A stretch of 64,000 nt of DNA from Candidatus Pantoea bituminis. GTDB lineage: Bacteria; Pseudomonadota; Gammaproteobacteria; Enterobacterales; Enterobacteriaceae. Within the stretch, counting starts at the first letter, position 1; the number at the start of each line of letters is the position of its first letter. Below, one piece after another: positions 9,739 through 55,301 of this stretch. The DNA lies in contig NZ_JAGTWO010000004.1 of the NCBI RefSeq assembly GCF_018842675.1, positions 3,472,001-3,536,000 of the forward strand. The letters are read 5' to 3'. The notes under the pieces were generated by a model. The model did no database searches and was not told where the DNA came from. It saw only the letters and a list, made by a program, of their open reading frames with translations. Made by a program: the position numbers and the translations under genes.

Positions 9739-10398
9739 ATGCGTGTGTTGTTAGTCGAAGATGATGAAATGATTGGCGCAAATTTACAGCAGGCGCTGGA
9801 AGCAGCGGGCTGGTCAGTTGACTGGGTTCGTGACGGCGTTTTTGCCCATAATGCCTGGGCTGAGGGCGGCTACAGCTGCGTATTGCTCGATCTCGGTTTA
9901 CCGCGTGATGACGGTTTGCAGGTGTTACGCCGGGCGCGCAGCCGTGGCGATGCGACGCCAGTGCTGATTCTCACCGCACGCGATACCGTGGCACAGCGCG
10001 TACAAGGGCTGGACACCGGCGCAGATGATTACCTGCTTAAACCTTTTGATCTGCAAGAAGTGCTGGCAAGAATGCGTGCCATTACTCGACGTCGTCACGG
10101 CGCGGCAGATTCGGTGTTAGGCAGCGGCGATGTTCAGCTAGACATGTTGACGCGTGAAGTGATGTACAAAGGCCAGCGCGAGCAGCTTACCGCGCGTGAA
10201 TATGCGCTTTTGTATGCCTTGCTGGAGCGTCCGGGCGCCATTTTGTCTCGTGAGCAGTTGGAAAATCGCATTTACGGTTGGGGCGAAGAGGTCACCAGCA
10301 ACGCGGTGGATGTGTTGATTCACGGTATGCGCCGCAAATTAGACAACGATGCAATCCGCAATGTGCGCGGGTTAGGCTGGCGAGTACCGGCAATATGA
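9739..10398 (+). CDS. OmpR-family response regulator, QseB/PmrA-like
   Basis: 219 residues. The receiver domain (1-115) has the acidic pair E7/D8/D9, phospho-acceptor D51, T79 and K101. The winged-helix DNA-binding domain (about 125-219) has LTAREYALLYALLERPGAILSREQLENRIYGW and ends RGLGWRVPAI. Length and pattern place it with QseB/PmrA (BasR). The gene overlaps the start of the sensor kinase gene (ATGA), so the two are translationally coupled. The 11-base-period repeats upstream suggest autoregulation. The orthologue cannot be settled from sequence alone. Confidence 0.92.
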   Translation: MRVLLVEDDEMIGANLQQALEAAGWSVDWVRDGVFAHNAWAEGGYSCVLLDLGLPRDDGLQVLRRARSRGDATPVLILTARDTVAQRVQGLDTGADDYLLKPFDLQEVLARMRAITRRRHGAADSVLGSGDVQLDMLTREVMYKGQREQLTAREYALLYALLERPGAILSREQLENRIYGWGEEVTSNAVDVLIHGMRRKLDNDAIRNVRGLGWRVPAI

Positions 10399-11749
10399 AA
10401 CCTTTCACTTTTATGCGATCCCTGCGTAATAAATTATTGAGCACGCTGCTGATTATCCATTTATTGATGATTGGCGGCGTGAGCTGGTATTTCTTTAGCT
10501 GCTATGGCGACATGATTGGCACTATGAAGGATGATCAGCTCTCTAAAATCGCCGATGCCTGGGCAACCAACAAACAAATTCCTGCGTTAATGCCCCTTAT
10601 GGTGCCAGCCGACAAGCTGAAAAGCGCGTTTGTGGTTCAGCTCTGGGATGCCGATGGTCAACTGCGCGCCAGCTCCTGGCCAGAACTGCACGCCCCGCTG
10701 CAAGCGAAAAAGGCTATCACGATGCCGATGTCGGCGGTTGCCATGATTGCGAATGGCGTATTTATACGCGACCCGGCCAACCCGGCAGTGATATCAAAAC
10801 CATTCAGGTGATGCATAACCTGAGCTATATGAAAGAGTTGATGGTGAAGCGGGCACTCTCAGCGATCGTACCCTTGATCCTAATGATGCCGCTTTCGCTG
10901 CTGGTGATCTGGTTGGTCGTGCGTAAGATCACCCGCGATCTCCGCGTCGCATCGCGCCAGATCGCCGCCCAGGAAACTCATCATCCCCACAATGTTTCGC
11001 CCGATGGCTTACCGGATGAGATCCTGCCGCTGGTTGCGGCTTACAACTCGCTACTCGATAAACTGCGCGCAGCCTGGTCGGCCCAGCGTCAATTTTTGGA
11101 AGATGCTGCTCATGAACTGCGAACGCCTGTCACCGCTGTTACCTTACAGCTAGAAAATTTACGCCAACATATTCAACAGGGTGAAGCCAGCCGCCAGTTT
11201 GATCAGCTTGAAGCGGGCGTGACGCGCACACGTCATTTGGTCACACAGTTACTGAATATTTCACGTCAGGAAGATCAAACCGTGGTCGCCAGCATCGAGA
11301 ATATTGAACTGGACGATCTGCTGAAAGAGAGCATTGAGCAGCTCATGGTTGTGGCAGATAAGCGTGGTATCGACATCGGTTTCAACGGCTCTACCCATTA
11401 TCGTTTGCAGGCGAGCCGCTCCGAACTACGTAGCCTGTTCGATAACCTGATTGGTAACGCCATGTTACATACGCCAGAAGGCAGTTTGGTGGATGTTTTA
11501 CTGCATCGCGTTGCGGGACAAACGGTGGTCGATATTGTTGATAACGGGCCGGGTATACCGGAATCGTTTATTGAGCGTGCTTTTGATCGCTTTGCTCGTT
11601 CGCCAGATGTGAAAGCCCAAGGCAGCGGTCTGGGTTTATCGATTGTGCGTAGCGTGGCGGAGAAGAACAGCATTCATGTCGCACTTTCCAACTGTTTCAA
11701 TCCACAAGGCGCCATTTGCGGCTTGCAGGTTCGCGTTACCCTTCCCTGA
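10395..11749 (+). pseudogene. Sensor histidine kinase, QseC-like, with one frameshift
   Basis: The frame from the ATG at 10395 breaks at about 10737-10745. Adding one base there continues EWRIYTRPGQPGSDIKTIQVMHNL into the downstream frame and gives 451 residues, the length of QseC (449). Landmarks: first membrane helix at about 15-35, periplasmic sensor to about 150, second helix (IVPLILMMPLSLLVIWLVV), a HAMP-like linker, H-box FLEDAAHELRTPVTAV (His about 240), N-box FDNLIGNAMLHTPEG, G1 DNGPGIP, G2 GSGLGLSIV. It would phosphorylate the adjacent regulator. An indel error or a recent mutation would look the same. A 23-base-spaced inverted repeat (11765-11801) follows the gene. Confidence 0.85.
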
Positions 11750-11764
11750 TCTCACCTGTTCGAA

Positions 11765-11801
11765 ACGGAACCTGACAACGTAAACGGTTGCCTGGTTCCG
11801 T
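11765..11801. terminator. Inverted repeat after the sensor kinase
   Basis: ACGGAACC (11765-11772) pairs with GGTTCCGT (11794-11801), with further pairing inside (CAAC/GTTG). There is no U-run, so it is a weak candidate terminator. Confidence 0.35.
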
Positions 11802-11818
11802 TCGCCACCCACTATTAA

Positions 11819-11834
11819 TGTGATCATCATCACA
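11819..11834. promoter_or_regulatory. CRP (cAMP receptor protein) site upstream of tsx
   Basis: TGTGATCATCATCACA matches the CRP consensus TGTGA-N6-TCACA at every defined position. It lies about 195 bases before the tsx start. In E. coli tsx is under CRP/CytR and DeoR control, so the site fits its context. Confidence 0.65.
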
Positions 11835-12027
11835 TTTCAGCTGAATTATCATGCAACACATTTTGACAAACGTGAGCAAAATCTATTTTCTATCCCCTTG
11901 TTGCAGGCACGCTACGCGAGCTTAAAAACGCCTTTGGCTGATTAAAACAATTCACTGCCCATCAAGGGATCGATTTCACTCTGATCGCGCCAGTCGTGCA
12001 GCGGTCAAAAGCATGTGGTTAATGATA

Positions 12028-12892
12028 ATGAAATTTAAAACGTTGGTAGCAGGTGCCTTGCTGGCATGTTCCATGAGCGGCGCTGCGCAAGCGGCTGAAA
12101 GCGATCCGCAGTATGTTTCTGACTGGTGGCACCAAAGCGTCAACGTGGTGGGCAGCTACCACACGCGTTTCGGACCCCAGTTCAACAACGATGTTTATCT
12201 GGAATATGAAGCTTTCGCCAAGAAAGATTGGTTCGATTTTTATGGCTACCTCGACCTGACAAACTTCTTCGGCGTGGGCAACAGCAATGCCAACGGCATT
12301 TTTGACCACGGCTCACCGATGTTCATGGAGATCGAACCGCGCTTCTCTATCGACAAATTGACCGGCACCAGCCTGGCGTTTGGTCCATTCAAAGAGTGGT
12401 ATTTCGCCAATAACTACATCTACGACATGGGCCGTAACAGCGATAATCGCCAAAATACCTGGTACATGGGTTTAGGAACCGACATCGATACGCACAGCGA
12501 TGTTGGCCTTTCATTGAACGTTTATGCGAAATACCAGTGGGAAAACTACGGCGCGGCGAACGAAAATAGCTGGGATGGTTATCGCTTCAAAGTGAAATAC
12601 TTTGTACCGATCACCACGCTGTGGGGGTAATCTGGGTTACGTGGGCTTCACTAACTTCGATTGGGGTTCAGACCTGGCCGAAAAAGGCGGCTCTTCACGT
12701 ACCAGCAACTCTATCGCCTCTAGCCACATCCTCTCTTTGGGTTACGATCACTGGCATTTCTCTGCCGTGGCGCGTTATTTCCACAATGGCGGACAGTGGG
12801 CTGATGGCCGTGAGCTGAACTTTGGTAACGGTGATTTTGAAGTGAAATCTACCGGTTGGGGTTATTACCTGGTTGCAGGTTATAACTTCTAA
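12028..12892 (+). pseudogene. tsx: Nucleoside-specific outer-membrane channel Tsx, with one frameshift
   Basis: A signal peptide ([22 protein letters not shown]) is followed by a 12-strand beta-barrel sequence that tracks E. coli Tsx: [53 protein letters not shown]. The frame breaks in the G-run at 12624-12629, where a stop appears just after ITTLWG. The next frame resumes with [18 protein letters not shown] and ends in [14 protein letters not shown]. Either one extra or two missing G explain it; the total is about 287 residues against 294 in E. coli. Tsx is a passive pore for nucleosides and a phage/colicin receptor, so true loss could be selected, but the G-run makes a sequencing error more likely. 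Confidence 0.88.
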
Positions 12893-12897
12893 TGCCA

Positions 12898-12946
12898 CAG
12901 GCGGCATTCGCCGCCTGCCTCGCTCTTCCCCACTTGGGGAAGAGCG
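12898..12946. terminator. Two hairpins between tsx and the convergent VOC gene
   Basis: CAGGCGG/CCGCCTG at 12898-12917, then an 11-bp stem CGCTCTTCCCC/GGGGAAGAGCG at 12921-12946 followed by CTTT. They probably terminate tsx and perhaps both genes. Confidence 0.6.
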
Positions 12947-12954
12947 CTTTGCCT

Positions 12955-13389
12955 TTATTCATGCGGCTTCAAGACATTGATGCGCCATGGAATTCCGAAC
13001 TTATCGATGAACATACCAAACCCTTTGGCCCAGAATGTTTCCTGCCAAGGCGTTGTGATTTTCCCCCGGCTGATAACTTTTCAAACCAGGCTTCACCTTG
13101 CGCCGTATCGGTTGTCGCCAGGCTGACCGCGTAACCTGCGTGCTCAGAAGCGGGCGGCTGATTAGGGTTGCCGTCACTTAACATCAGCTCCCTTGCCCGA
13201 TACGCAAATGCGCATGCATGATTTTTTCAGGGGTAGCGGCGGCGCTGATTTATCGCCGACCTGCTCGCCCTGCTCCGGCATATCGCCAAAAGTCACCTTA
13301 TAGAGCAGCTCGCCACCCGTCGCATTCAAGTAAAACTCGATCGCCTCTTCACAACGGCCGTAGAGAAACAGGTAAGGACTCACTTGCAT
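12955..13389 (-). pseudogene. PhnB-like VOC (glyoxalase-fold) protein, three single-base frameshifts
   Basis: The start MQVSPYLFLYGRCEEAIEFY follows a GGAGG site. Read through three breaks, the protein runs ...GDKSAP, then PEKIMHAHLRIGQG, then LMLSDGNPNQPPASEHAGYAV, then TPWQETFWAKGFGMFIDKFG and ends in INVLKPHE, 145 residues, as in the PhnB/DUF3335-type VOC family. The breaks are near 13240-13247 (GCC repeats), 13185-13195 (GGGAG) and 13060-13068 (GGGGGAAAA); each needs one added base. The family binds metal or small ligands in a paired beta-alpha fold; no function is assigned. Three defects of the same kind in 435 bases argue for sequence error or an old decayed gene. Confidence 0.75.
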
Positions 13390-13464
13390 CGTAACCTCCA
13401 TTGGTGGGTTGGATGGATTAATTCACCACACTCCAAAGTGTAGACGATGAGAGCTGGTCACTTG

Positions 13465-14363
13465 TCACTGCTGGCAATTTCTACGGAATAACTGCGCCAT
13501 GTAGCTGCTCATCGGCGTTAGCGCAGCGTCTTTTCGTTGAATCAAATAAAAGGTCGCTTTCGGCAGCGGTTCATCCAGCTCTAATGCCACCAACTGTCGG
13601 CCTAAAATAGGATCATCAATCACATCCACCGACAAGATAGAGACGAAATCGCTCTGCGCCACCAGGCTGGTGCAGGCCATAAAGGTTTCGCAGGTAACGA
13701 CAATTTTCGGTGCCATGCCGCGATCGCCAAACAGATCATGCAGCAAGCGATAATAGCTGCCTTTGGGCGTTGGCATGGTCCAGTCACATTGCTGCAACTC
13801 TGCCAGCGAGCGCGCTTTCTCTAGCGGATGCCCTTTCCGCACGACCACTTTGTATTCGCGCTCCATCATGCGCTCGTACATCAACTCCTGATCGAGATGG
13901 CTTTGATCATAGGTATTGATGGTGAAATCCAGCGCGCCCTGGCGCAATTCATGCACCATCGACACCAACTGGCCTTCAACAATGCGTACTTTGACCAGCG
14001 GATATTCACGGTGAAACTGATTGATTACCTGCGGCATGATGGTGCGCGCAACGCTGCCGCCTACACCAATATTCACTTGCCCACCGCCCAACCCCAGACG
14101 CTGCTGAATATCTTCTTGCGCTACCCGCAACTCCTCCAACACCAGACTGGCGTGACGAAAAAGTTATCACCGATGTCGGTCAACACCACACCTTGCTGGC
14201 GGCGAACAAACAGCCGTGCGCCAAGAACCGACTCCAGTTCCTGAATCGCTTTCGTCAACGCCGGCTGTGAAAGGCCCGATAAACGGCTAGCCGCGCGAAT
14301 ACTGCCCTGACGCGCTACGTCAACAAACGCGCGTAATTGATGAAGTTTGAGATTAGCAGGCAT
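13465..14363 (-). pseudogene. abgR: AbgR, LysR-type regulator of abgABT, with one frameshift
   Basis: The N-terminal part (LHQLRAFVDVARQGSIRAASRLSGLSQPALTKAIQELE) and the C-terminal part (LVLEELRVAQEDIQQR, VKVRIVEGQLVSMVHELRQGALDFTINTY) closely follow E. coli AbgR. The frame breaks at a run of five A (14158-14162, + strand). One more base restores GDNFFRHASLVLEEL and gives 299 residues against 302. It is divergent from abgA with a 115-base gap, as in E. coli, which supports the assignment. Confidence 0.88.
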
Positions 14364-14395
14364 GATTTTTGTGATAACCGCTGTTTATCAGACAC

Positions 14396-14411
14396 AAGAT
14401 ATTCGCATCTT
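14396..14411. promoter_or_regulatory. Possible AbgR operator
   Basis: AAGAT-ATTCGC-ATCTT, an interrupted dyad of the LysR T-N11-A kind, in the abgR-abgA divergent promoter region. Confidence 0.3.
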
Positions 14412-14477
14412 ATGTGGGTGTTTACCATTGTGTAGATTCAGAACAATGCATAAAAAACCAACACCAGGAGATTGCCG

Positions 14478-17230: not shown

Positions 17231-17297
17231 GCCACCGGCCGCGCCTCATGGCGCGGACCGAGATAAAAACAAGCAAACACAAAACGAGGAAGGACGG

Positions 17298-19007: not shown

Positions 19008-20419
19008 ATGACAACAGCCTGCCCAACAGGGATGGCGCCGACGCACGCTTCGTCGGCACCCAACAACAGCTTAGCGGGACGCATTGATGCGCTGCCTTCC
19101 TCCGCCGGTTTGTGGCGTTTCATTTCTTTGCTGGCGCTAGGCGGCTTCTTCGAACTCTACGACCTGTTTGAAACCGGCTATATCAGTTCTGGCTTGCTGG
19201 CCACCGGCGTTTTTCATACGGGCAGCGCAGGCGTGTTTGGCTTTTCCGATCAGGCCGCTTTTGCTTCTGCAACGTTTCTGGGTCTGTTTTTTGGCGCAAG
19301 CCTGTTAGCACCCTACGCCGATCGCTTTGGTCGCCGCCTGACGTTTATGTGCGCACTCATGTGGTATGGCCTGTTTTCGCTGCTGATGGCTTTTCAGCAA
19401 AGCGCCGAAATGATCATCCTGTTCCGCTTTCTAGTCGGTATTGGCTTGGGCATTGAGCTTGTCACCATCGATACCTACTTGTCGGAATGGGTACCTACGC
19501 ATCTGCGTAGCCGCGCCTTCGCGTTTTCATTTTTCATTCAGTTTCTCTCAGTGCCTGCGGTGGCTTTGATGTCGTGGTGGCTGGTGCCGCAAACCATCCT
19601 CAGCCTGGAAGGCTGGCGCTGGGTGGTGATTGCAGGCGCGCTCTGTTCACTGGTGATTTGGTTTATTCGCAAAAACCTGCCGGAATCGGCACGCTGGCTG
19701 GCGCAACAAGGCCGTCATCAAGAGGCGCATCAGGTGCTCTCGGCAATGGAAAAGCGTTGTGGCATGACGCCGGGCGCAGATTTTCCACCCGATGATGCCG
19801 CGGCACAACTGCCGAAAAAGGGCGTTTCAGCGAGATTTGGGCACCCGCTTATCGCAAGCGCACCCTGATGCTGGTGGTAATGAATTTCTTCCAGGCAATT
19901 GGTTTCTTCGGCTTCGGTAACTGGCTGCCCGCGCTGCTGTCGGGCAAAGGCACCACGGTCACACACAGTTTGCTTTATGCCTTTTTTATCACGCTGGCCT
20001 ACCCGCTCGGTTCATTGATTTGCAGCCGTTACGCCGATAAGTTTGAAAATAAATGGCAGATTGTGATGTCGTCGCTGATGACGGTGATATTCGGCACGCT
20101 GTTCGCCTTCCAGACCAATCCGGTGCTGCTGATTATTTGCGGCTTTTTGATCACCTATTCCAACGCCTGGCTGACATTTAGCTATCACGCTTATCAAACT
20201 GAGATCTTCCCGACGCATATTCGCGCCCGTGCGGTTGGCTTTTGCTACTCGTTCAGCCGCTTATCGACAGTGTTCAGCAGCATTTTGATTGGCTTGATTT
20301 TGCAATACGCCGGCACGCAAGGCGTGATCGCCTTTATTGTGCTGAGTATGCTGATGGTGATGTTGTCGGTGGGAATTTATGGCCCGAAAACGCGCGGTAT
20401 TGATTTAGAGAATATTTAA
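19008..20419 (+). pseudogene. MFS transporter of the metabolite:H+ symporter type, with one frameshift
   Basis: Motif A (APYADRFGRRLTFMCALMWYG) and VGIGLGIELVTIDTYLSEWVPTHLR-type loops mark the sugar/organic-acid symporter branch of the MFS. The frame breaks at about 19823-19827 (GTTT). One added T continues KKGVFSEIWAPAYRKRTLMLVVMNFFQAIGFFGFGNWLPALL, giving 470 residues and about 12 helices. It sits 190 bases after abgT but has its own gap and may be an independent uptake gene. The substrate is not evident. Confidence 0.8.
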
Positions 20420-23779: not shown

Positions 23780-24516
23780 TTACGTTCTCTCTCCGCGAAT
23801 CGACACTGACGGGAACGGATATTGTTCGCCGCGCTCTACCCAATCCATAAAGTCGGCGCGGGCGCCTGGGAAGCCAATCAGCTTCCAGCCCACCATGCCT
23901 TGATTGCCGCCGTGGATCGGATCGCTGAAGAAGCCTTCGCGGGTGTTTTGAATCAGGAACGCAAAGAAGGTTTTACTTGGCAGTTGTTTGAACTCGGCTT
24001 TGCCGCTTTCCATTGCCTGTAACAAGGCGTCTTGCTGGTCGCCAGTCAGCTCAGCGAACACTTTTCCATGCTGCTGTTTGCTATAGTCATCCGCATCGGC
24101 GAGGCCCAGCCGATAGATTTGCTGTGGCACCAGCGGCAGCTGATAACCCAGCTCTTTCGGCAAGTCAGGATTGAACGGTCCCTGCATGTACCAGGTTGCA
24201 CCGGTCGCATAAGGGGTGTTCATCTGACGATCGATAAATTCCGGTACGCCCGCTTCCAGTGCGCCGGGACCCCGATCATCTTTGGGGATCAGGCGCGCGA
24301 CCGCCGCCTTAATAAAAGCGAACTCTTCGGCAGTAAACCAGTTGGGTTGATAATCACGCGCCTGTTGCGGGCCGGTTGAATTTACTTCTGCAGCCTGCGC
24401 TGCCATTGGTGTTGTGAATGCACCCATAGTAGCGCCACCCACCGCCATTGCTGGCGCCAGGGTGATGGTCTTCAGCAAAAAATCCCTGCGTGAATGACCC
24501 TTTTTTGTTCTGACAT
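23780..24516 (-). pseudogene. Gluconate 2-dehydrogenase small (gamma) subunit, with one frameshift near the start
   Basis: The body carries a TAT signal (SRRDFLLKT) and the subunit-3 pattern [29 protein letters not shown]...[12 protein letters not shown]. The natural start appears to be the ATG at 24516 with a GAGG site seven bases before it. From there [13 protein letters not shown] is read only if the run of six T (24501-24506, + strand) had seven, giving 245 residues. Without that base the only in-frame starts lack a ribosome site. It is the first gene of the operon and likely carries the TAT signal for the FAD subunit as well. Confidence 0.85.
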
Positions 24517-24608
24517 GACATTGCCTCAGTACCGCATACAATGCGGCATGAAAGAGTAATTGATTGCGTTGTAATGGTTTTTATAAGCGGTTTTAGGGTT
24601 ACAGCTTC

Positions 24609-24626
24609 ATTGTTACCGGTAACAAT
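24609..24626. promoter_or_regulatory. GntR-type operator ahead of the gluconate dehydrogenase operon
   Basis: ATTGTTACCGGTAACAAT is an 18-bp perfect palindrome with the TGTTACCGGTAACA core of the GntR/IdnR gluconate regulators. It lies about 95 bases upstream of the first gene of the operon, in the divergent region shared with sbmA. This suggests induction by gluconate. Confidence 0.65.
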
Positions 24627-24791
24627 TGCCGTTAGTGTAACACCGTTAGCCACAAAGATTGAGGGGATGGAAACAAAATCGCACAAATTCATTAACATCC
24701 ATCGCCACGCATTCATTGTCTGATACATCACATCACTTACAGAGAGCAGCCAAAAACGTTATAACAGTCTGCACACAACAGCGGAGAACCT

Positions 24792-26032
24792 ATGTTTAAG
24801 TCCTTTTTCCCCGGCCAGCGCTGTTTTTTAGCTCAGCAGCGATTTGGAGCTTGCTGGCTATTTTTGCGTGGTTCGGTTTTGCCGATCGTATACCTGCGTT
24901 ATGGCCAGCTTTTGATGCCGCAATGAAACAGCCTTTACCGACCACGGCAGCACGCTTTATCGCTGCCAGTCAGCTATGGTTTTATGCCTATTACTGGATC
25001 ATGGTGACCGTTTTCGCGCTGGCCTGGCGGGTGATTGATAATCATCCTTGGCAGCGTTGGTCAGTGTGGGGTTCAGCCCTGATTATCTTTGTGACCTGGT
25101 TTGGCGTGCAGGTTGGCGTGGCGATTAACGCCTGGTATGGGCCTTTCTATGACCTGATCCAGAAAGCGCTGACGAAAGCCGGTTCGGTACAAATCAGTGA
25201 ATTTTATGGTGAAGTCAGAGCATTTTTAGGCATCGCACTGATTGCCGTAGTGATTGGCGTAATGAACTCATTCTTCATTAGTCATTGGGTGTTCCGCTGG
25301 CGTACCGCGATGAACAATTACTACATGCACAACTGGCAACGCCTGCGTCATGTCGAAGGCGCCGCTCAGCGTGTACAAGAAGACACCATGCGCTTTGCCA
25401 CCACGCTGGAAGATTGGGGCGTGAGCTTTATTCAGGCAATTATGACGCTGGTGGCCTTTTTACCGGTGCTGGTCACGCTGTCACATCACGTTAAAGATGT
25501 GCCGTTTCTGGGTAACATTCCCTATGCGCTGGTGATCGCCGCGGTGCTGTGGTCAGTGTTTGGTACCGGGCTGTTAGCATTGGTGGGAATTAAACTGCCG
25601 GGGCTGGAGTTCCGCAATCAGCGAGTAGAAGCAGCATATCGTAAAGAGCTGGTTTACGGCGAAGATGATGCTTCACGCGCCTCGCCACCCACCGTGCAGG
25701 AGCTGTTCAGCCGGGTACGGACTAACTATTTCCGCCTTTACTTTCACTATCTCTATTTCAATATCACCCGCATTCTTTATTTGCAGGTGGATAACGTCTT
25801 TGGCTTGTTCCTGCTGTTTCCGTCGATTGTGGCAGGCACCATTACGCTGGGATTGTTAAACCAGATTACCAACGTATTTGATCAGGTGCGTAGCTCTTTC
25901 CAGTATCTGATTACGTCGTGGTCAACGCTGGTGGAGTTAATGTCGATCTACAAACGTCTGCGCAGTTTCGAGCAGATTTTGCAGGACATTCCGCATGAAG
26001 AGATGATGCGTGAGGCGTCCGAAGAGGTGTAG
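24792..26032 (+). pseudogene. sbmA: Peptide antibiotic transporter SbmA, with one frameshift near the start
   Basis: The ATG at 24792 begins MFKSFFPG as in E. coli SbmA. The run of six T at 24824-24829 needs one more for the frame to continue FFSSAAIWSLLAIFAWFGF. The rest is uninterrupted and very similar: IIFVTWFGVQVGVAINAWYGPFYDLIQ, FRWRTAMNNYYMHNWQ, EGAAQRVQEDTMRFA, FRNQRVEAAYRKELVYGEDDASRA. The restored length is 413 (E. coli 406). SbmA is an inner-membrane proton-driven importer of microcins, bleomycin and proline-rich peptides. Real loss would give peptide resistance, but the homopolymer suggests error. Confidence 0.88.
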
Positions 26033-32537: not shown

Positions 32538-35500
32538 TTAGAATTGCCAGCGCACGCCAACGTTATACCGCCACCCTTTGGCGCCGTTGCTATCAATCTC
32601 TTTGCGGTAATCCGCTTCTGCATACAACGACAGATCTTTTTTCACTGTTGCGGTTCCGCCTGCGCCTAACTCCCACATTTGCCCGACGTGGCCGCTATCG
32701 AAACTCCCGCTGAATGAGGGATTATCGACGGCTGAAACCGTGCTTTTTACCGTGCCGCCCCAGCCTTTGTAGTAGTTCGCGCGCAGATAAGGTGTGTATT
32801 GGCGATGGCTCTCGTCCGTCCAGGTGCGATCCAGGCGTGCACCGAGACGACCCAGAATCTGATTATCATTGTCGTAACGCACCTTGTTGCCATCTGCATC
32901 AACAAAATCACTCATGTTGAGCTTCATGTACATCAGCTGTGCCTGCGGCTCTAACTTGATATCGTGTGCCAGCTCAAAGGGATAACCGCTCTCTAATGAC
33001 GCGGTCCAGCCATTCGCTTTTAACGTCGCCACATCTTTCTTACTTGCGACATCGGTTTCACCGCGATGGCGATCAAACGACAACACGCCATCAAGATAGA
33101 ACCCATTTTGGCGCTGCCAAGTGCCGTAAAAGGCCAGGCTGTCGCTGTCAAAACTGGTGCTGCTGTAACCGTCTGCAGCGTCAGGCCGAATACGCGTGTT
33201 ACCGCGCGTGTAGGCTAAGCCGCCGCGCAGGCTATCTTTTTCACCATCAAGGCGCAGCAGATTACCGCCCACCTGAACCGCGCTGTAGTCGAGGTCAAAA
33301 TCGTAGCCGTAATCGCGGAAACGCTGGTCACTTTTGTATTTCAGGTTAGAACCGATGTAGCGCAAAAACATCTCGCCGCCATCGCCTTCTGAGCGCGTTT
33401 GCTCGTGGCGTAGTTCACCCAAACGCTTATGCAGATCGTCAATAATCGCGGCGGTGTAATAAGCCAATCCAACGGGTGCGGAGATATAGGATGGCACCTG
33501 CGGCACGACCGCTGGGCGTGATTCCGCTCGGCTACTGCTGATATTTTGGTTAGTTGTGGTATCAAACGGCGTGGTCACGAATGTTGAACAGCTGCTTTCT
33601 CCCTCGCAGACGTAGTAATTTGCCAGACGATAATCCCAGTAATTATTGCCCGTTCCATTGACCAGGCGCTGATTCGGATCGCTGCTGCCTGGTGCAAAGC
33701 TGTAGAGACGATATTGCCACGGCCCTGCCGCAATGTACCCGCCCGCCAGCGCCAGGCTGTTGCCGCTGGCATTGCCTGCGACCTGCGCCAATGAAATCCC
33801 TTCACCGGCATCAATGCCGCCATTACGGTTGAGATCGGTCAGCATACCGGTGCTTGCCGCATCGAGCTGTACATTCATTAGCGTGGTGCCGCTGGCGTTC
33901 CCCTCAACATTGAGATGGTCAGTGAACTGATTGCTCAGCGCCCCGCCTTGGTTGAGATGGGTGAGCAGATTGAGCTGTCCGCCGCTGGAGGCCAGAGAAC
34001 CCTCGATATCCAACGTATTTCCCGGTGAACCGCCGCCGTTGGTTAAATCGATAACGCCTGCGTTATTCACCACCAGCGAGTTATCACTGCCGCCCGCCAG
34101 CGTCGGATGCACATTGTTGCCTGCATACAGTATTGAATCGCTACCGATGTTGATGGTGCTGTGCGCCAGTTGCAGGTTATCGGTCAGCGTCCATTGCGAG
34201 CCATAGAAGTTTAGGGTGCTCCAGCCGCTGCCAAGGTTTACCCCTTTGCTGAGATCGTCGGCGCTGAACGAGCCGCCTCGCGCAGCGATATCATTAAAGG
34301 TCAGCGTATTGCCGGTGCCGTTTCCGCTGGTGAGATGGTAAGTCGTGCTGAGATCAACACCGCTGACTTCAGCCAGATTGTTGTTATCGCCGCCCATCGT
34401 CAGGCTGCCGTTGAGCGTGCCGCCGGTCCAGCGGAACGTATCACGGCCGCCGCCAGGATTGATGTCGCCGATTACGCCGCCTTCGGTCAACAGGATCTCA
34501 TCGTTGGCATTGCTGCCCGCCACCGCGACGGTAGAAGGGTTGGCGGTGATGATAGTGCCAAGGTTTTCAAACAGAGTTTGTCCACCGCGCAAATCAACCA
34601 CCGGTGAAGTCAGGCTATTTGATGTAAAAGTGCCGGTGTTCAGGATACTGCCTGCGGTGCTGGAAACCAGAGCTGAGCCGCCGGCGGCATCATTGATATT
34701 AACGTTGGCTGCGGTCATCACTCTGCCCGTGGTATTGGCGCGAATCCCGGTGCCGCCCGCGCCGTTGACGTTAAAGACGTAACCCGAACCCAACGTGAGA
34801 TCGCCCTGCGTGGTTGAGCCGTCGGCATTGACGATATTCAAACCGGTCCCGCTGCCGTTGACGTTGGTGGTCACGGTTGAAGCGGGATCGAACGGCACGG
34901 CGGTTCGTATGCCGTTGCCATCACCCACGTTCACGGTGAGATTACTCAGACTCACGTTACCCAGCTCCGCACGGTTTTCGATGCCGTTGCCGGAGCCGTT
35001 AACATTGATGGTGGCGTCGCTGGCGCTGAGTGAAGACGCGCCGCTGTCCAGCAAAATGCCGTGCGCATTGCCATTCGTGGTAATCGCCGTGTCGCTGCCG
35101 GTTAAAGCCAGCTGTGCGCCATCACTAATGCGTACCCCGCCACACCGTTGGCGACAGTGATCACTCCCCTTTCGCCAGCGTCGATCCCGATCCGCTGACA
35201 TCCAGCCCGGTTCCGTTTGCCACATTGACCACACCGTTATTGCTGATGGTGCTGCCGCTGCGCGAACGAATGCCGATATTGCTGCTGCCGGTAAGATCAA
35301 CGTTGCCGTTGTTAACCAGCTCTGCGCCGTTGGTGACGTCGATACCTACCGCGTTGCTGCCTGCGCCGTTAACTAAACCGTTGGTCGTGATGAGCGTCGG
35401 TGCGGAATCGCCGTTTAACGTGTTGCTGAGATCGGTACGCAGATTGTTAACCAGTACGCCGACGCTGCTGTCGCCGCTTAGCGTGATGGCGCTGCCCGCG

Positions 35501-38500
35501 TCGAGCGTGGCCTGTGCACCGCCTTCCGCGCGTATTGCGGTGCTGCCATTACCGCTGGCGTTGAACTGGCTGCTGCCGCTGTTCAGTGTGCTGTCGCTGC
35601 CAGAAACGATCACGCCGGTGCTGTTGGCGGCGCTGCTGGTTAATGCGCTGCCGTTGCTCAGTGCCAGCGTCGCACCATCATCAATACGATAACCGGTTGA
35701 GCCGCTGCTATTGACGTCAAGCACGGTTGCGGCGCTGTTGATGAGAGAACCTGAGCCGGCTGCGTGATAGGCAATTTGCTCGCTGTTGTTAAACACCGGC
35801 GTGGAGGCTGATGAGACGTTAACCCGCGCACCACTTACTGCTTCTGCGCCTATCGCGCCAACGCCGTTGAGGTTTACCGCGCCGCTATTGAGATTAACCA
35901 CTGCAGCGCTGCCACTGGCACTCACGCCTCGAGTACGGCTGCGGGTGCTGCCACCGTTGACGTTAATCACGCCGCTGTTATTGGCGGTCGTGGTGGTGCC
36001 GCTGCTGTTCACCGCGATGCCCGTGCCGCCATCATTGATAGCGATATTGCCGCTGTTGGTGCCGGTTGCGCCGCTTTCAACGCGAATGCCGGTCGAGTTT
36101 GCCCCGCTGAAGTTGATATCCCCGTGTTGGTTAACTGTGCGCGGTTACGGGCCAGATAGCCAGTTAGGCCATTTTGTGAGGCGTTCAGGGTTGCCGCTGA
36201 ATTCAGGCTGGTGCTGGCGACTGGCGCTCCACTGTTGCTGCCCGCGAGTGTGTGTTTTTGCCCATCAACAATCGCGCCAATCGCATTGCTGCCTGTCAGA
36301 TTCATTCGGGTAGCGGCATCTATTGTGCCCAGTGCACCGCCTTCAATGGTGACGCCGTTCGCGCCGGTGCCGCTGACGTTGATCACCGCATTTTGGGTAT
36401 TCACGCGGGTGCCGCCGGTTCCACTGCCCATCACGGCGGTTGAACCTGCGCCGGATGCGGTAAGCAACAGATTGCTGCCGTCGAAATCGGCGCCCTGCTC
36501 AACGCGGAACAGCGTGGAGTTTTGCGTGGTGACATCAAACGGATTATTGCCCGCCACGTTGATGCGTGCGTTGGGTCCGTAAGCAAAGAAGGCAATTTGA
36601 TTGCTGCCGTTGGAGAAAGTCGGCACCGCTTGCTGCGCAACTTGTATCGTGGCATTGCCGCGGGCATGCACCCCAATTGCGCCAATGCCGCTGAGGTTGA
36701 TCGGGCCATCAACGGTAGACTGCGCCGTGCCAGTGCCTTGCCCTTCTACCCATACGCCGTAATTGCGTGTTCCGCTGGCAGGATCGGCGCCGCCCGCCAC
36801 GTTAATGGTTCCGGTAGAGCTGGCGCTGGCGGTGTTGCCGTTGGTTGCCAACACTTTTAGGCCAGTGCCGTTAACACCATTCAGGTTGATGGTGCCATCG
36901 TTAACAATATTGCCACTGCTGTTGATAGCCGCCATGCCGATGTTTTCACGCGGAACCGTTGCTGCTGCGCCGTTCACGTTAATCGTGCCGGTATTCATCA
37001 AGGTGGCGTTGTTGGCATTGGTTGCAGACATGCCCGCGCCGTTCTGTACCCGTGAACCGAGAGTGATATTGCCTGCGTTAATCGCGGTGCCGTTCGCCAC
37101 CAGCGCGATACCGCTGGTCAGGCCGCTCTGGTTCATTGCGGTGTCGGCCACCGCTTCACCGGTGCTGTTTTGTGGCCCACGACCAATATAGATATTACCG
37201 CTAGCGGTATTGGTAAACGTGGCGCTGGGATCGGTCAGTAACACGCCAGACGTGGTACCGCGCGCGCTGGAACCGTTAACGCCAACATTAATATTGCCGC
37301 TGTTATTGGCCGTGGCGTTATCTGCCAGCGTGATGCCCGCTACGCCATATTGAGAATTGCTGCCGGTGGTCGCCAGATTAAGTATTCCATTGTTATCAAA
37401 AGTGCTGCCGCTCTGCACCGCTACCCCGTTTGCGCCATAACCGGTTGAGCCAATACCGGTGCCATCTTGCCGATTGAGAAAACCGCCGTTAATAACACCA
37501 TTATTGGTGCCTTTGCTGTTATCGGTTAACACCAGCGCCGTACCGTTGTTAGTCACGGCTCCCCGGCTGGCGAGCTTGCCATCGATCACCGCTTCTGCGC
37601 CGTTGGCCGCTCTTATTGCTCCACCTGTTGCGCCCACCACTTCCAGCGTTTTTCCTGCCGCCAGATTCACTCGCGCGTTAGCCCCATCAGCATTGATCAC
37701 AATGCGTTGCCCAATACTCTGCGTAACTTCATCCGGTGGCGTGGCGCTGACGTTGTAAACGATATTGGCGTTAGTGAATGTCACCGCCTTGTTGAATTCA
37801 GCCTGATAGCGTGTTTTATCAAGGTTGCCGGCTTTGAGTTGGTCAATCAGCCAGTTGTTGTAGGCTCGCAATTGGCTGGCATTGGTGACGGTGAAGTTGG
37901 TGCTGCTGCCATTCAGGGTGGTAACACTGAATGCGCCGTTGTAGGAAGCTAAATTCTGTACCTGATAGCTGCTGGTTGCACTCGCGCCATTCGGCGTGGC
38001 GGCGCTACCAAAAAAGCTGATGCGGTTATTACTGTTCCAGTTCACCGTGCTGTTGGCACCCACATCAAACAGTTGCGTCTGTTTAGCTGCCATTGACCAG
38101 CTATTCGTGCCGGCGCTGCTGGCAGCGTTTGCCTGGCCGATATTCACATTTAGCGTACCGCCAGTAACATCCGCGATGCGTGCATTGATATATTGCTCGC
38201 CCAGGACATTTTGTACATCGGGAACAGGGGTGGTGCCAGTAACTGGCGCTAAAGCCGTTAGGCTGGCAGGGTTATAGACCTGAAAAGTCGTATTTGAACC
38301 GGTGGCTGCATCGGGGATCGTAATCGCGAAATTTTGTGGGCCGGGATCAAGACGATCTTGATTGAGATATTGCGATCCCTGCGTGATGACAACCTGCCCT
38401 AGCGCGGTAGTAACAGCACCGTCTGTTCCCGCCGTGAAAGCTTGATTGCCGCTCAACGTTTCTGTGCCGCTGTTCACCACCAGCTTGCCAACCTGATTAT

Positions 38501-38615
38501 CATTTACCTGCGGCGTATAAGTGCCCAGCGTAGCCGCCTGAACAGACATAACTGGCGTAAACAGCAGTTGTGCTGTCATCATCCCTAAAGCAATCGGGTT
38601 TAATTTCAACCTCAT
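32538..38615 (-). pseudogene. Very large autotransporter adhesin (type Va secretion), with three frameshifts
   Basis: The start MRLKLNPIALGMM follows GGAGATAAAA. A signal peptide ends near SVQAATLG. The passenger of about 1,700 residues is full of short repeats built on N, G, S, T and V (NNGVINGG, SGNINVG, TGTINV), as in beta-helical adhesins. The C-terminal beta-barrel domain begins around YISAPVGLAYYTAAIIDDLHKRLGELRH, includes WQRQNGFYLDGVLSFDRHRGE, and ends GWRYNVGVRWQF. Three breaks, each needing one added base, lie at 36120-36123 (CCCC), about 35160-35170 and 35125-35128 (CCCC); restored it is about 2,026 residues. It would present an adhesin on the outer surface. The three breaks with an otherwise clean frame favour sequence error. 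Confidence 0.85.
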
Positions 38616-39030
38616 TTTTATCTCCAAAAAAGGCGTGCAGGAATCACCTTGCCAGGCAAGGTTTAAAAAGGATGGATATGATAAAATTGCAGGAATTAAC
38701 GCTTCCCAGATTGCTGAAAAAAGTCGGGATCAGTGACTGATTATTATTTTATACAGCCGAGCATTACTGAATAAAATTAATCACTCAAGGCTGAAAATAT
38801 TATGAATTGATATATAGACGTAATTGCTACGTATTACAAAAGCGTAGCGGCAGGATATTCAGTAATTAGTTGTGAAGTAACCAGAAAAAAGTGCTGAATC
38901 AAAACAGCCTATAACCCTTCTCTTCATATTGACATGAGACTTTAGTGCTTATAATACCTTAATGTTTTTTTACAGCTTACTTACGATTGGCTCTGATTTA
39001 CCACTGCGCTTCCCGGTAAATTTATTTTAA
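38616..39030. other. Upstream region of the autotransporter; AT-rich, no gene
   Basis: About 415 bases, AT-rich, with several TATAAT-like stretches on the - strand. CCTTGCCAGGCAAGG at about 38649-38663 is a short dyad. Probably promoter and regulatory DNA for the adhesin. Confidence 0.4.
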
Positions 39031-47816: not shown

Positions 47817-47830
47817 TCATTTCAGCAGGA

Positions 47831-48790: not shown

Positions 48791-48880
48791 TGTGTTCTTC
48801 CTTGTGTGTTTAAAAACAGCACGCACTTTAAGGAAAGAACAAGAGGTGGAATATAAGCACCGGCTTGAAAAAGTCTTAAC

Positions 48881-49576: not shown

Positions 49577-49994
49577 TATTGCCCTGCTTACGCGCTGCGC
49601 GCGCCACTTCATAGCGATAAACGCGATCCACCACTAAGGCTGTCGAGGCCAGGACCAACAGTGTACTGATAGCAATTACCAGAAAAATGCGCCAGCCTTC
49701 AATACGTAGCAAATCGCCGTAGTTCACCACCGCGACCACCGCAGGAATAAAGAACAACAGCATTTCCGCCAACAGCCAGTTTGAACCCGCCTTTACCCAA
49801 CCCAGCGGCACGATGCGTGTCACGATTAAAACCAACATCAGCAGCATGCCGACGATATTGGCAGGCAACGGCAAATGCAGCCAATTGACCAGACGATCGC
49901 AGCCTACAAACACGCTGATATAGAGTACCAGCTGCAGTGGCAATCCAAGTCGTTGCAGCATGCCCATTCTTCGCGGACTGATTGCTAACGCCAT
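49569..49994 (-). CDS. CidA/LrgA-family holin-like protein
   Basis: 141 residues with four membrane helices and a positively charged tail, holin-like in build. Family pattern: LPLPANIVGMLLMLVLI and NWLLAEMLLFFIPAVVAVVNYGDLL. The start follows GGGGAGAAG. It overlaps the CidB/LrgB gene by eight bases. A LysR gene is divergent on the other side, the arrangement of cidR-cidAB, so CidA is the closer model than LrgA. Confidence 0.9.
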   Translation of the reverse strand: MALAISPRRMGMLQRLGLPLQLVLYISVFVGCDRLVNWLHLPLPANIVGMLLMLVLIVTRIVPLGWVKAGSNWLLAEMLLFFIPAVVAVVNYGDLLRIEGWRIFLVIAISTLLVLASTALVVDRVYRYEVARAARKQGNNA

Positions 49995-50097
49995 TTTTTC
50001 TTCTCCCCGTCAATTCAAGGTGCTCAGTATAAATCCCAGACAGAAGGTGAAAAAAATGAATTAATATTATTAAAATCATGCCAAAAAGGAATAGCTC

Positions 50098-51000
50098 ATG
50101 GATGTCCGCGCGTTGCGTTACTTTACCGAAGTGGTTCGCCAGCAAAGTTTTACGCGCGCCGCGCAGAAACTGTATGTGACGCAGCCAACTATCAGCAAAA
50201 TGTTGCGTCAACTTGAGGAAGAACTGGGCTGTACGTTGATATTACGCGATGGTCGACGCTTGCATCTCACCGACAGTGGGCAGGCGGTTTATCAGCGTGG
50301 CCTGGCGATTTTGCAAGAGTTTCATCAGCTAGAGGCGGAAATCGGCGACATTAATCAGTTGAAAACCGGCGAGCTACGATTGGGCATTCCTCCCATGGTG
50401 GGTATGCAGATAGCCGGTTCAATTTCCGCTTTTCGCCGTCGTTATCCTGGCGTAGCACTAAAAATTTCTGAGTTCGGTGGCTTAACCGTTCAGCAGGCCG
50501 TGCTGGCGGGCAGTTTAGATATCGCGCTTACCGCGCTACCCGTGGAGGCAGATTTACCTCTTAATACGCTGCCGCTGATGCATCATCCCCTTTGCGTGCT
50601 CCTGCCGCGCCGCGCCGAGTGGCTCAATCGCAGCCATATTGGTTTGTCCGAATTGGCAGAACATCCTTTACTGATTTTTAATGAAGAGTTTTCGCTTAAT
50701 CGCCAGTTAATGCAGGCGTTTCAACGTCTCGGCATTACGCCAACGATCGCAGTGAGAAGCGGGCAATGGGATTTTCTGGCTGCAATGGTACAGGCCGAAA
50801 TGGGAGTAGCAATATTGCCGGAGCCGATCTGCCAAAGGCTGGATAAACAGTCGCTGCTGTGGCTGCCACTGGAATCAGAACTGAAGTGGAGTTTAGGCCT
50901 GATTTGGCGTGAGGGCAGCTATTTGTCTCGCAGTGCGCAAGCATGGATTGATTGCTGTCATGAACATTGGCCCGATGACGCCCCACGTCTTTCAGTGTGA
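50098..51000 (+). CDS. LysR-family regulator, CidR-like
   Basis: 300 residues. HTH at about 18-37 (FTRAAQKLYVTQPTISKMLRQLEEELG, split over the usual helices) and a LysR effector domain with LGIPPMVGMQIAG and AEMGVAILPEPICQRL. The start follows AAAGGAATAGCTC. It is divergent from the holin-like pair, which it most likely activates; CidR of other bacteria responds to acetate or pyruvate-type acids, which would suit the nearby acetate genes. That link is an inference. Confidence 0.9.
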   Translation: MDVRALRYFTEVVRQQSFTRAAQKLYVTQPTISKMLRQLEEELGCTLILRDGRRLHLTDSGQAVYQRGLAILQEFHQLEAEIGDINQLKTGELRLGIPPMVGMQIAGSISAFRRRYPGVALKISEFGGLTVQQAVLAGSLDIALTALPVEADLPLNTLPLMHHPLCVLLPRRAEWLNRSHIGLSELAEHPLLIFNEEFSLNRQLMQAFQRLGITPTIAVRSGQWDFLAAMVQAEMGVAILPEPICQRLDKQSLLWLPLESELKWSLGLIWREGSYLSRSAQAWIDCCHEHWPDDAPRLSV

Positions 51001-51119
51001 CCCGTCATCATTCACGCTACTGTTGCGTTGGCTTCACTTTTTCCCCGATCACTTACCTGAGTAAGCTTCCGAGGATAAACACGCTTGCCACCTTCCTGCA
51101 GCATGGATGATGCGGGTTA
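51001..51119. repeat. ERIC-like (IRU) element 3
   Basis: 119 bases, starting CCCGTCATCATTCACGC and ending GGATGATGCGGGTTA. The centre (CCCCGATCACTTACCTGAGT, then AAGCTTCCGAGGATAAAC) corresponds to the ERIC core dyad. It lies between the convergent LysR and yjcE genes. Confidence 0.7.
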
Positions 51120-51138
51120 TTTCATTCTCGTAAAAAAC

Positions 51139-52787
51139 TTATTCTTCTTTCTCAATCAGTAACGCTTCCAGCAAATCGAGATCGTGCAGCAGTTTCTGCA
51201 TGGTTTCGTTGGAAATCTGTTGAGTAGCACGCAAATGATAGACCTCGGCGCGTTCAGCACGCAGCGCTGTCAGACGGAATCGACGCTCCAGATTCTCGGC
51301 GAACAGCGCGTGATCGATATCATTTTTACCTTCTGCACGACGACGCAAGTTGCCAATCACGCGCAAGCTGACCTCTTTCAGCAGTTCAGGATCGATGTTC
51401 TCGGTGGTCTCATTTTCCAAACGAGACTCCATCTTCTGTAGGCTCTCAATGGCCACGCTGGCCATGACCGCGCGGGCATTTTGCAACTCACGGCGATGAC
51501 TGGATTTATCGATACCATCATAGCCACGCAGCAGAATAGGCAGAATGACCACGCCAATCAGCAGCGAGAACAGAATCACACCGGTGGCGATAAACACCAG
51601 TTCATAACGGGCTGGGAACGGGTCGCCATTGCTGAGAAACAGCGGAATAGATAACACACCCGCCAGCGTAATGGCACCACGTACACCTGCGAATGAAGCA
51701 ATCAGCAGCTCTTTAAACGAGTAGTTGGAGAACTCCAGCGGCTTTTTCTTCAACAGGCGCTTACTGAAGCGCTGCATGATCCATAACCAGCCGAAGCGCA
51801 CCACCATCAACGAGACATAGACCAACCCGATATCTGCAAACAGCATCCACAGCTCGACATTAGGATCGGCGTTAGCCTGGTCGATGGAGGTTTGCAGAAT
51901 GTCGGGCAACTGCAGGCCAAGCATCAGGAACACCATGCCGTTAAAGACGAATTCCAGCATCTGCCAGACGCTGTTAGCACGTAAGCGCATCGCCAAAGGA
52001 GCCTGACGGATGATGCCAGAGCGCGTAATGGTCATACCCGCAGCAACCGCAGCCAGGATGCCAGACACACCCAAATGTTCAGCAATCAGGTAAGAGGCGA
52101 ACGGCAGCAGCAGCAGCAGAACCGTCTGTGTAGCCGGATCATCACCACTCCAGCGGCTCAGCAGGCGCAGCGATTTTCCGTAAAGCCAGCAGATTGCAAC
52201 ACCGGCAACCAAACCGCCTACCGCAACCTTGAGGAACTCAACGCTGGCGCCGCCCCAGGTAAAGACCATTGTGCCCATGGCGACGGCAACAGCAAACTTG
52301 AGCGACACCAGGCCGGATGCGTCGTTCATCAACGCTTCGCCCTGCACAATCGACATGATTTTTTCGGGATACGCCCTTCACCGACAATGCCTGAAAGTGC
52401 GACGGCATCGGTTGGTGACAGCACCGCTGCCAACGCGAAGGCGGGAATCAGTGGAATGCCGGGCACCAGCCAATAAATCAGGTAGCCAATTCCCACCACG
52501 GTAATCAGAACCAGCACCAACGCTAATCCAATAATTTCTCGACCGTGATGCAGGAACTCGCTAATCGGTGTTTTCCATCCATCAGCAAACAGCAGCGGCG
52601 GAATGAACAGCACTAAAAACAGTTCTGGATCGAAGTCAACATGCAGGCCAAACGTTGGCCAGGCGAGCAGCGCACCGGCCGCGATCTGCACTAATGGCAG
52701 CGGTATTTGAAAAGGGAGAATGCGAGCAGCAACGCCAGAAAGCGAGACCACCAGCGTCATAATGAGAATAGTAAAAAAGATTTCCAT
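51139..52787 (-). pseudogene. yjcE: YjcE, Na+/H+ antiporter (CPA1), with one frameshift
   Basis: The start MEIFFTILIMTLVVSLSG follows AAGGAAAGC, and the protein follows E. coli YjcE throughout (FDPELFLVLFIPPLLFADGWKTP; SFAGVRGAITLAGVLSIPLFL; HLRATQQISNETMQKLLHDLDLLEALLIE). The frame breaks at a run of six T (52359-52364, + strand). One added base restores GRIPKKIMSIVQGEALMNDASGL and gives 549 residues, equal to E. coli. It is an inner-membrane exchanger with a C-terminal cytoplasmic tail. The yjcF gene found next to it in E. coli is absent. Confidence 0.9.
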
Positions 52788-52936
52788 GCTTTCCTTAAGC
52801 GCCTTAAAGTCTCTCAAGCAATGTCGTAAGCGCTAAAGTGTAAAACAAACCCAAGGTTGCTGGGATTACTACACGTGCGACAAGGGGTAAAAAAGAGAAT
52901 AATCCTGGACGCGCCTCTGCGCGCCCACTTCTACAG

Positions 52937-54286
52937 TCAGATCGCCCAGCCACCAGCGTAAAAAGCCACCAAGGCTACCGCAATCACCACGGTTCCTGTA
53001 TTCAATTTACGCCATTCGCCAGCAAAAATGCGTCCAACCACCAGCGCAGCAAAACCGAGCATGATGCCGGTGACGATGTTGCAGGTCAGCACAATAATGA
53101 CCGCCGTCAGCAGGCCAGACATCGCATCGACAAAGTCAGTAAAGTCGATTTTGGCGACGTTACTCAGCATCAGCAGGCCAACGTACATCAGCGCAGGCGC
53201 TGTGGCATACGCCGGGACTAAGTATGCCAGCGGCGACATAAACAGAATCACCATGAACAGCAAACCTACCACAATTGCCGTCAGACCGGTTTTACCGCCT
53301 GCAGCCGTGCCCGCCGCAGACTCGATATAAACCGCCGCTGGCGATGCGCCGACTAAGCCAGCAAACAGACTGCTGACCGAGTCGGTGGTTAAAGCGCGAC
53401 CGCCGTTGATGATCTGCCCGTCTTTATCGAGCAGATTCGCCTGGCCAGCCACTGCGCGGATGGTGCCGGTGGCATCAAATACCGCTGTCATCACCAACGC
53501 TAACACGCTAGGTAACACGACTGGCTGCAAGGCGCCCATGATATCGAGGCTAAACACCAGCGATTGACCGTTGGCATCAGCCAGGCTCGGCAGCGCAAAC
53601 AAACCTTGATAACTTACCGCGGGATCGAAAATGAGCCCTAATACCGAAATGGCAATAATGGTCAGCAAAATGCCGCCCGGCACCTTACGCTTTTCAAGAC
53701 CAATAATCGCACCCAATCCCAACAGTGACATCATGACCGGGAAAGAGTTGAAATGACCCAGCGCTACCGGCAAACCCGGAGCCGGGTTTTTTACCACTAA
53801 ACCTACGCCATCCGCCGCGATCAGCAGCAAAAACAGCCCGATGCCGACGCCTGTACCGTGCGCAACGCCCATCGGGAGATTGCGCAAAATCCATGAACGG
53901 ATACCGGTCACGGAAATCAGCGTAAACAATACGCCCATCAGGAATACCGCACCGAGCGCGACCGGCACGCTGATCTGCTGCCCCAGCACCAGACTAAAGG
54001 CGGTAAAGGCGGTTAACGAAATGGCGCAGCCAATCGCCATCGGCAGGTTAGCCCACAAGCCCATAATGATGGAGCCAAAGCTGGCAACCAGACAGGTCGC
54101 GACGAACACAGCGGTTGGCGAGAAGCCCGCTTTGCCCAGCATACCTGGCACGACAATCACCGAATAAACCATGGCTAAAAACGTGGTTAGCCCCGCCAGA
54201 ATTTCCTGGCGAACGCTGCTGCCACGAGCAGAAATTGAGAACCAGGCGTCCAGTTTTCCACTGGCCGATCGTGATTCGTTTGACAT
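52937..54286 (-). CDS. ghxP: Guanine/hypoxanthine permease GhxP (NCS2)
   Basis: 449 residues, identical in length to E. coli GhxP (YjcD) and very similar: [83 protein letters not shown] and [21 protein letters not shown] are recognisable pieces. A proton-coupled purine-base importer of the AzgA-like branch. The start follows GAGG. Two PurR-like sites lie 100-170 bases upstream. Position between yjcE and soxR matches E. coli. Confidence 0.95.
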
Positions 54287-54383
54287 AATTGAGCCTCAAA
54301 GAGTTTTTGTTGTGTAGATCGCTCTGCGACCGCCGCCCTGAAATCCCTGGGTAAGTTGTTTGCGCCAAACAGCGTCAAACAGA

Positions 54384-54399
54384 AGGCAAACGTTTACCT
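54384..54399. promoter_or_regulatory. PurR operator upstream of ghxP
   Basis: AGGCAAACGTTTACCT closely matches the PurR consensus ACGCAAACGTTTGCGT, about 100 bases before the ghxP start. Confidence 0.65.
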
Positions 54400-54439
54400 T
54401 GCCGCAGATAAGTGACCCTTCAAAGATGGGCAAATAAAA

Positions 54440-54455
54440 AGGCAAACGATTATCC
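54440..54455. promoter_or_regulatory. Second, weaker PurR-like site
   Basis: AGGCAAACGATTATCC keeps the GCAAACG half of the PurR consensus; an inverted CGTTTGC lies at 54458-54464. Confidence 0.4.
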
Positions 54456-54636
54456 GGCGTTTGCTGGCACATTTTCAACTGCTTGATGGTCATTAATCAG
54501 GATAAAGATTTCACTGGATCGCGTATGACGTAGACTTGCTCTGTTGCGTAACACGCGTTTCGCTTTGAAGTTGCAGGATTTTATGAAAAGGAGAAGAGGT
54601 TGCGCAACGGCAAGCATTACGCAACAAAAAAGGGAT

Positions 54637-55301
54637 TCAGCCTTGCAGGTTAATGTCGCCGCCCTGCTGAATGGCGCGTTGCCAGGCGGCGCGCTGTTTC
54701 ACCGTTTCCAGCCACTTTTGCGTCGCGGGCATCTGCTGCAAACCGGCACGCTGATTCAGTGCCAAAAGCGGGAAACTCATTTGAATATCCGCGATGCTGA
54801 AACGCTTGCCCGCAAACCACGGATGCGCGACGAGATGGTTTTCAATCATTTGCATGTGCGGCTTCAGCTGTTTATCAAGAAAGGCTTTTTGTACGCCTTT
54901 ACCAAACATGCCGCCAATCGGCCGCAATAGCCAAGGCACCGGCGCTTGCCCGAGTCGAGCAAAAATCAATTTCATTACCAGCAATGGCATCAATGAGCCT
55001 TCGGCATAATGCAGCCAGTAACGGGATTGCAGCGCCTCTTCCTCATCAGTGAGTTTCAGTCGATATTCGGCATCATATTTATTTTCGAGATATTCGAGGA
55101 TGGCACCCGATTCGGCAACCACGCGGTTTTCGTCAGTAATGATTGGCGATTTACCCAAAGGGTGAATTTTTTCAGCGCCTCAGGCGCCAGCATGGTGGAT
55201 TCGCGCTGATAGCGTTTGATCTGATAAGGCACTTCCAGCTCTTCGAGCAGCCATAACACGCGATGCGAGCGCGAATGCTCAAGATGGTGAACGGTGATCA
55301 T
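54637..55301 (-). pseudogene. Glutathione S-transferase, with one frameshift
   Basis: The N-terminal thioredoxin-like domain starts MITVHHLEHSRSHRVLWLLEELEVPYQ; the helical C-terminal domain has WLHYAEGSLMPLLVMKLIF and HPWFAGKRFSIADIQMSFPL. The frame breaks at a run of six T (55167-55172, + strand). One added base restores LKKIHPLGKSPIITDENRVVAESGAILEYLE, so the glutathione-binding ESGAI motif follows correctly; about 221 residues. It conjugates or reduces electrophiles with glutathione. It lies next to soxR, a plausible oxidative-stress context, but there is no proof of co-regulation. Confidence 0.88.

Follow-up and report, generated by a model that had tools for sequence, protein, structure and literature searches.

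Ten genes in a 64,000-nucleotide stretch of the Candidatus Pantoea bituminis genome (the window) have interrupted reading frames, and this raises the question of whether the organism has lost them or whether the deposited sequence misrepresents them. The window (bases 3,472,001-3,536,000) belongs to a 4,008,183-base contig, one of 5 that make up a genome of 5,222,323 bases. An earlier note, made from the letters of the window, had regarded the breaks as probable assembly indels. The published project on isolate EnvD (Pantoea sp., "Candidatus Pantoea bituminis"), which came from asphalt in Jerusalem and grew on plates, gives an assembly of 5 contigs with a largest contig of 4,008,183 bases (PMC9022320). 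According to that report, the EnvD reads came from an Oxford Nanopore R9 flow cell, with Guppy 4.4.2 as basecaller and Flye as assembler, and were deposited as SRP316834; its main text contains none of the terms polish, medaka, Illumina, homopolymer and indel (PMC9022320). Through its match to this project, the assembly is identified as an R9 nanopore assembly without short-read polishing. EnvD is also the nomenclatural type of Pantoea bituminis (PMC10665919). The same project and pipeline yielded the sister isolate Candidatus Pantoea haifensis EnvH (our genome G004 and locus L041; 10 contigs, the largest of 3,740,753 bases). The listed completeness of 95.96% for the present genome is an unspecific figure, two other relatives being lower still. 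Megablast searches against plasmids returned 10 records for a 20-kb query (nine at 60-80% identity, the tenth a match of 41 bases) and none for an 11-kb query.

Each of the fourteen claimed sites was aligned at the DNA level with relatives, namely five genomes and, for sites below 20.5 kb, the nearest 34 (L041-L074) of 80 fetched loci, the other 46 being left out. The resulting counts per site, of up to 39, are of records and not of species, because G004 = L041, G008 = L049 and G010 = L048 each appear twice. At the same columns the frames of the relatives differ from that of the window, which bears out the claim that the ten genes are frame-broken. The sensor histidine kinase gene (10395..11749, forward strand) has one frame change, with a different frame in 38 of 39 records; the site lies near 10705-10712, roughly 30 bases away from the position of about 10740 at which it had been placed. 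A 452-aa kinase of a relative matches several histidine kinase families, each under its curated cut-off. The gene for the nucleoside channel tsx (12013..12892, forward) has one frame change, a two-base difference (38 of 38 records), and its relative scores above the cut-off for NF011686. On the reverse strand follows the gene that the earlier note named a VOC protein (12955..13389, the far end approximate), with three frame changes in less than 200 bases; in all 32 records spanning the stretch, out of 38 matched, the net difference is divisible by three, and among the eight records listed it consists of exactly three separate one-base shortfalls in five and is noisier in three. The LysR-family regulator that the note called abgR (13465..14363, reverse) has one frame change in 29 of 29 records, and its relative is above the cut-off for the LysR family NF007307. 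In the MFS transporter gene (19008..20419, forward), whose relative has family matches under the cut-off only, 24 of 27 records differ at the one frame change, and EnvH has the state of the window.

The five remaining genes lie in the more distal part of the window, and three of them are frame-shifted once relative to all five genomes: the putative gluconate dehydrogenase small subunit (23780..24731, approximate, reverse); sbmA (24740..26032, start approximate, forward), where the change is close to the start; and the Na+/H+ antiporter family gene yjcE (51139..52817, reverse), whose relative is above the cut-off for TIGR00831. The GST gene (54637..55301, reverse) has one frame change in four of five comparisons, EnvH again having the window's state; a search with its relative gave no NCBIfam match at E 1e-30. 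The gluconate dehydrogenase, sbmA and GST names are those of the earlier note, as is that of the autotransporter (32538..38627, reverse), which has three frame changes, each relative to one comparator of one; the first two are about 30 bases apart and are accompanied by a neighbouring pair of gaps that cancel. Thus, for nine of the ten genes the frame disagrees with several relatives, and for the autotransporter with its one comparator. Among the records listed (at most eight per site), the window is one base short at 13 of the 14 sites and two at tsx, in line with the proposed count. Five of the sites consist of an A or T run five or six bases long. The four six-base runs that had been singled out, in the gluconate dehydrogenase, sbmA, yjcE and GST genes, were confirmed and are all of T; the intervals given for tsx (12624-12629) and MFS (19823-19827) were less apt, neither spanning one single run. 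The restored lengths put forward as equal to those of the families (kinase 451 aa, abgR 299, yjcE 549) agree roughly with the ORF lengths of the relatives listed for the kinase (451-455 aa) and abgR (300-311 aa); the yjcE ORFs in relatives are 573 and 583 aa, counted from the first start codon.

A second scan, which compared frame offsets between the window and the five relatives over the 48,679 of 64,000 positions that were comparable, returned 30 places. Eight are backed by more than one relative, and all of these fall within the listed genes. The other 22 were seen against a single relative, nine of them against EnvH, itself error-bearing, and nine of the 22 had just one comparable relative. 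The scan picked up sbmA against a single relative and did not recover the gluconate dehydrogenase or the autotransporter, such that the frameshifts in the latter two rest on the DNA-level alignment of the sites.

The earlier note had further contended that random decay would add stops to these genes, which is not the case in eight of the ten: the codon-by-codon comparison with every relative compared gave no in-frame stop in the kinase, tsx, VOC, abgR, MFS, gluconate dehydrogenase, sbmA and yjcE genes. GST and the autotransporter do show aligned stops. Those in GST, which has none relative to four relatives, are two in the comparison with G008, where the ORF picked is on the opposite strand from those of the other relatives; the same wrong choice yields 13 stops in a control gene that is intact. 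Relative to its single comparator, the autotransporter has one aligned stop, likely a matter of gap placement, since the window's own frame is open at that place. Apart from this one stop and the two from the wrong GST ORF, further stops beyond the first lesion, as in true pseudogenes, were not found in the ten genes. Ten in-window stops listed with at least two relatives in a looser scan include six in the VOC and MFS genes beside the frameshifts, which disappear in the codon-by-codon comparison; the other four, near 9724, 45753, 45822 and 49635, are outside the ten genes. In-frame stops with the backing of two genomes number 17 here versus 4 in G003, 10 in G005 and 11 in G004; with that of three they number 1 versus 0, 1 and 3, respectively. 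Change in the window's broken genes is mainly at third codon positions, with more second-position change in GST and the autotransporter than in five control genes; a wrong-frame ORF gave a permuted codon pattern in 3 of the 31 rows of one table and in two rows, one of them a control gene, of another.

The scale of the phenomenon was gauged from samples of 464 kb (of 5,222 kb) in this genome and of 470-471 kb in each of three relatives. ORFs of less than 100 aa, matches below 50% identity and chains covering less than 75% of the query were left out, and a site was counted if at least two other genomes supported the frameshift; a first frameshift scan, cluttered by antisense ORFs, had been dropped in favor of this one. 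Over 308,571 comparable coding bases of this genome we found 61 frameshift sites, and over 291,881 of EnvH 88, versus 0 in 300,732 (G003) and 2 in 312,318 (G005) in two relatives taken as controls irrespective of sequencing method (Fisher p = 9e-27 for the 61 sites versus both controls). With three supporting genomes required, the figures are 34, 54, 0 and 1. The broken share of comparable ORFs is about 19% in EnvD and about 25% in EnvH, and the median ORF is 271 and 249 aa in the two nanopore assemblies versus 305 and 313 aa. EnvH (G004; L021-L024 and L161-L180) displays errors of the same kind at a higher rate than the present genome.

These sites carry a distinctive signature. Fifty of the 61 are single one-base shortfalls, and only one is a single one-base excess, the rest being single differences of other length (6) or several indels (4); the single one-base shortfall likewise accounts for 72 of the 88 sites in EnvH. 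For the association with homopolymers we used 51 single one-base-short sites, obtained under a slightly different selection rule, each scored by the longest run lying no more than 3 bases away. This run is of at least five bases at 32 of the 51 (background 3.6%; p = 2e-33) and of at least four at 39, versus 10.7% of random positions. G/C runs are hit in 9 of the 51. The share of runs that are one base short relative to G003 climbs with run length, from 0.3% through 0.6, 4.1 and 15.9 to 33.3% for lengths 3-7; the corresponding values are 0.3, 0.5, 1.6, 3.2 and 0% for the control G005 versus G003, and 0.3, 0.7, 1.0, 1.7 and 9.1% for the reverse control G003 versus G005, the numbers at length seven being small (4 of 12 here, 0 of 19 in G005 and 2 of 22 in G003). 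One-base excesses do not climb along with run length. A/T runs of at least eight occur at 0.2 per 100 kb here and at 3.8 per 100 kb in either control. A count by run length at the gap position itself, in which 37 of 50 shortfalls did not fall in a same-base run, seemed to speak against the homopolymer connection; it was set aside because the sequence contexts showed runs beside most of them, with the gaps displaced by substitutions. In 12 of the 51 sites (L121-L140 and the window) there is no run of at least four nearby. Methylation-linked errors were considered and rejected, since Dam and Dcm motifs are not enriched around these 12 (GATC near 1, CCWGG near 1). Finally, 12 of 57 aligned sites fall within 15 bases of an EnvH frameshift, versus 1.4% of random positions, an overlap that suggests error determined by the sequence itself.

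The broken genes are under undiminished purifying selection. G003 ORFs with counterparts both in this genome and in G005 comprise 51 that are broken in the former and 222 that are intact there; the ratio of change at codon positions 1 and 2 to that at position 3 is 0.208 for the broken ORFs versus 0.216 for the intact ones (p = 0.56). In EnvH the same ratio is 0.196 versus 0.204 (p = 0.995). Amino-acid identity is also comparable, at 0.882 versus 0.872 (p = 0.32). Aligned stops total 15 for the 51 broken ORFs and 47 for the 222 intact ones. With a median of 427 aa versus 311.5 aa, the broken set is the longer of the two, which is the expectation if hits are random. Accordingly, there is no sign in this set of the relaxed selection that follows inactivation in true pseudogenes.

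A further constraint comes from the identity of some of the genes affected. An NCBIfam run on the intact relatives of 30 of the 51 broken ORFs matched 28 at the thresholds used, some under the curated cut-offs; the names include ileS, ftsI, dnaK, groEL, nusA and glmM, each over its curated cut-off. In a search of the whole genome at the thresholds used, ileS, groEL and glmM are found only as two adjoining pieces each, whereas they are whole in G003, G005, G008 and G010. EnvH has a whole groEL and a glmM in three pieces, and the matches to ileS begin only from residue 44 in both nanopore genomes. The breakage is therefore genome-wide and includes indispensable genes, as judged from the 464-kb sample and, for these three genes, from the whole genome. 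In Escherichia coli, ileS, groEL and glmM are essential. Since growth of the isolate on plates would be impossible without them, the deposited frames at these genes must be wrong; as the window bears the same signature, its frames are very probably wrong too.

We hence propose that the interruptions almost certainly stem from systematic errors of basecalling and consensus in an assembly built from nanopore reads alone, with the genes intact in the organism. R9-type pores read homopolymers poorly, the consensus would then call many of the longer runs one base short, and a shortfall inside a gene would shift its frame. The earlier reading as probable assembly indels is thus supported by the methods text, the controls, the response to run length, selection and the split indispensable genes found beyond the window within the region sampled. 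Many broken genes, most of them at runs, might also be produced by mass pseudogene formation through homopolymer slippage, as in host-restricted bacteria. However, slippage would not account for purifying selection being equal in broken and intact ORFs, nor for length changes that are nearly one-way (50 versus 1), and it would cost an organism with a 5.2 Mb genome and growth on plates its sole copies of ileS, groEL and glmM; we consider it most improbable. Still closer to nil is the chance that the deposited sequence is right, with the proteins recovered through programmed frameshifting or transcriptional slippage at runs. The short A/T runs at five of the window's sites would suit such a process, but the relatives hold the same genes in one frame, G/C runs and non-run sites are also hit, and about 19% of comparable ORFs would have to depend on it in a genome whose controls have 0 and 2 such sites.

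At the level of the individual site, each is inferred from sequence comparison to be probably an error. A mixed situation, in which errors predominate but the fourteen sites include one or a few genuine frameshifts, is unlikely without being negligible, the candidates being MFS, GST, the kinase, tsx and the autotransporter. The state common to the window and EnvH in MFS and GST could have come by common descent; the kinase site is away from a long run, tsx differs by two bases, the autotransporter has one comparator and somewhat raised second-position change, and one control genome does have 2 such sites. Nevertheless, the rate of sites is far above that of the controls, third-position change prevails in each of those genes, and sharing with EnvH is expected in any case because EnvH went through the same error process. 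It is quite doubtful that one or two of the fourteen, most plausibly the EnvH-shared MFS or GST sites, would be true inherited frameshifts among hundreds of errors.

Systematic errors of this type have precedents. In the work on Kastor, as far as consulted here, most indels are false deletions, commonest after four or five of one base, A/T runs are hit about twice as often as G/C runs, the pseudogene rate is 23.3% before correction, and just 28% of indel candidates are supported at its threshold once raw reads are consulted (PMC12007338). The present genomes resemble this in their shortfall-led, run-linked profile and in the share of broken ORFs; the organism and the manner of counting are different, as is the recourse to raw reads in that work (PMC12007338). 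Similarly, the errors remaining in R9.4 data are described in the Homopolish study, in the portion drawn on, as mainly systematic homopolymer indels that shift frames and generate excess pseudogenes (PMC8011154). Frame-shifting homopolymer indels are common to both cases, but the Flye drafts of that study are dominated by insertions and the sequence studied here by shortfalls (PMC8011154).

The broken genes are thus very probably an artefact and biologically ordinary. The consequences fall on users of the record of this nomenclatural type, in which close to a fifth of the comparable EnvD ORFs are broken as deposited; about 900 sites would be expected genome-wide, taking 85% of the genome as coding and the 464-kb sample as representative. 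Studies of gene loss, pseudogenes or biosynthetic clusters that draw on EnvD or EnvH would be misled. As a separate observation, the large autotransporter gene at 32538-38627 has a DNA match in G003 and none in the other four relatives compared, and looks to be patchily distributed.
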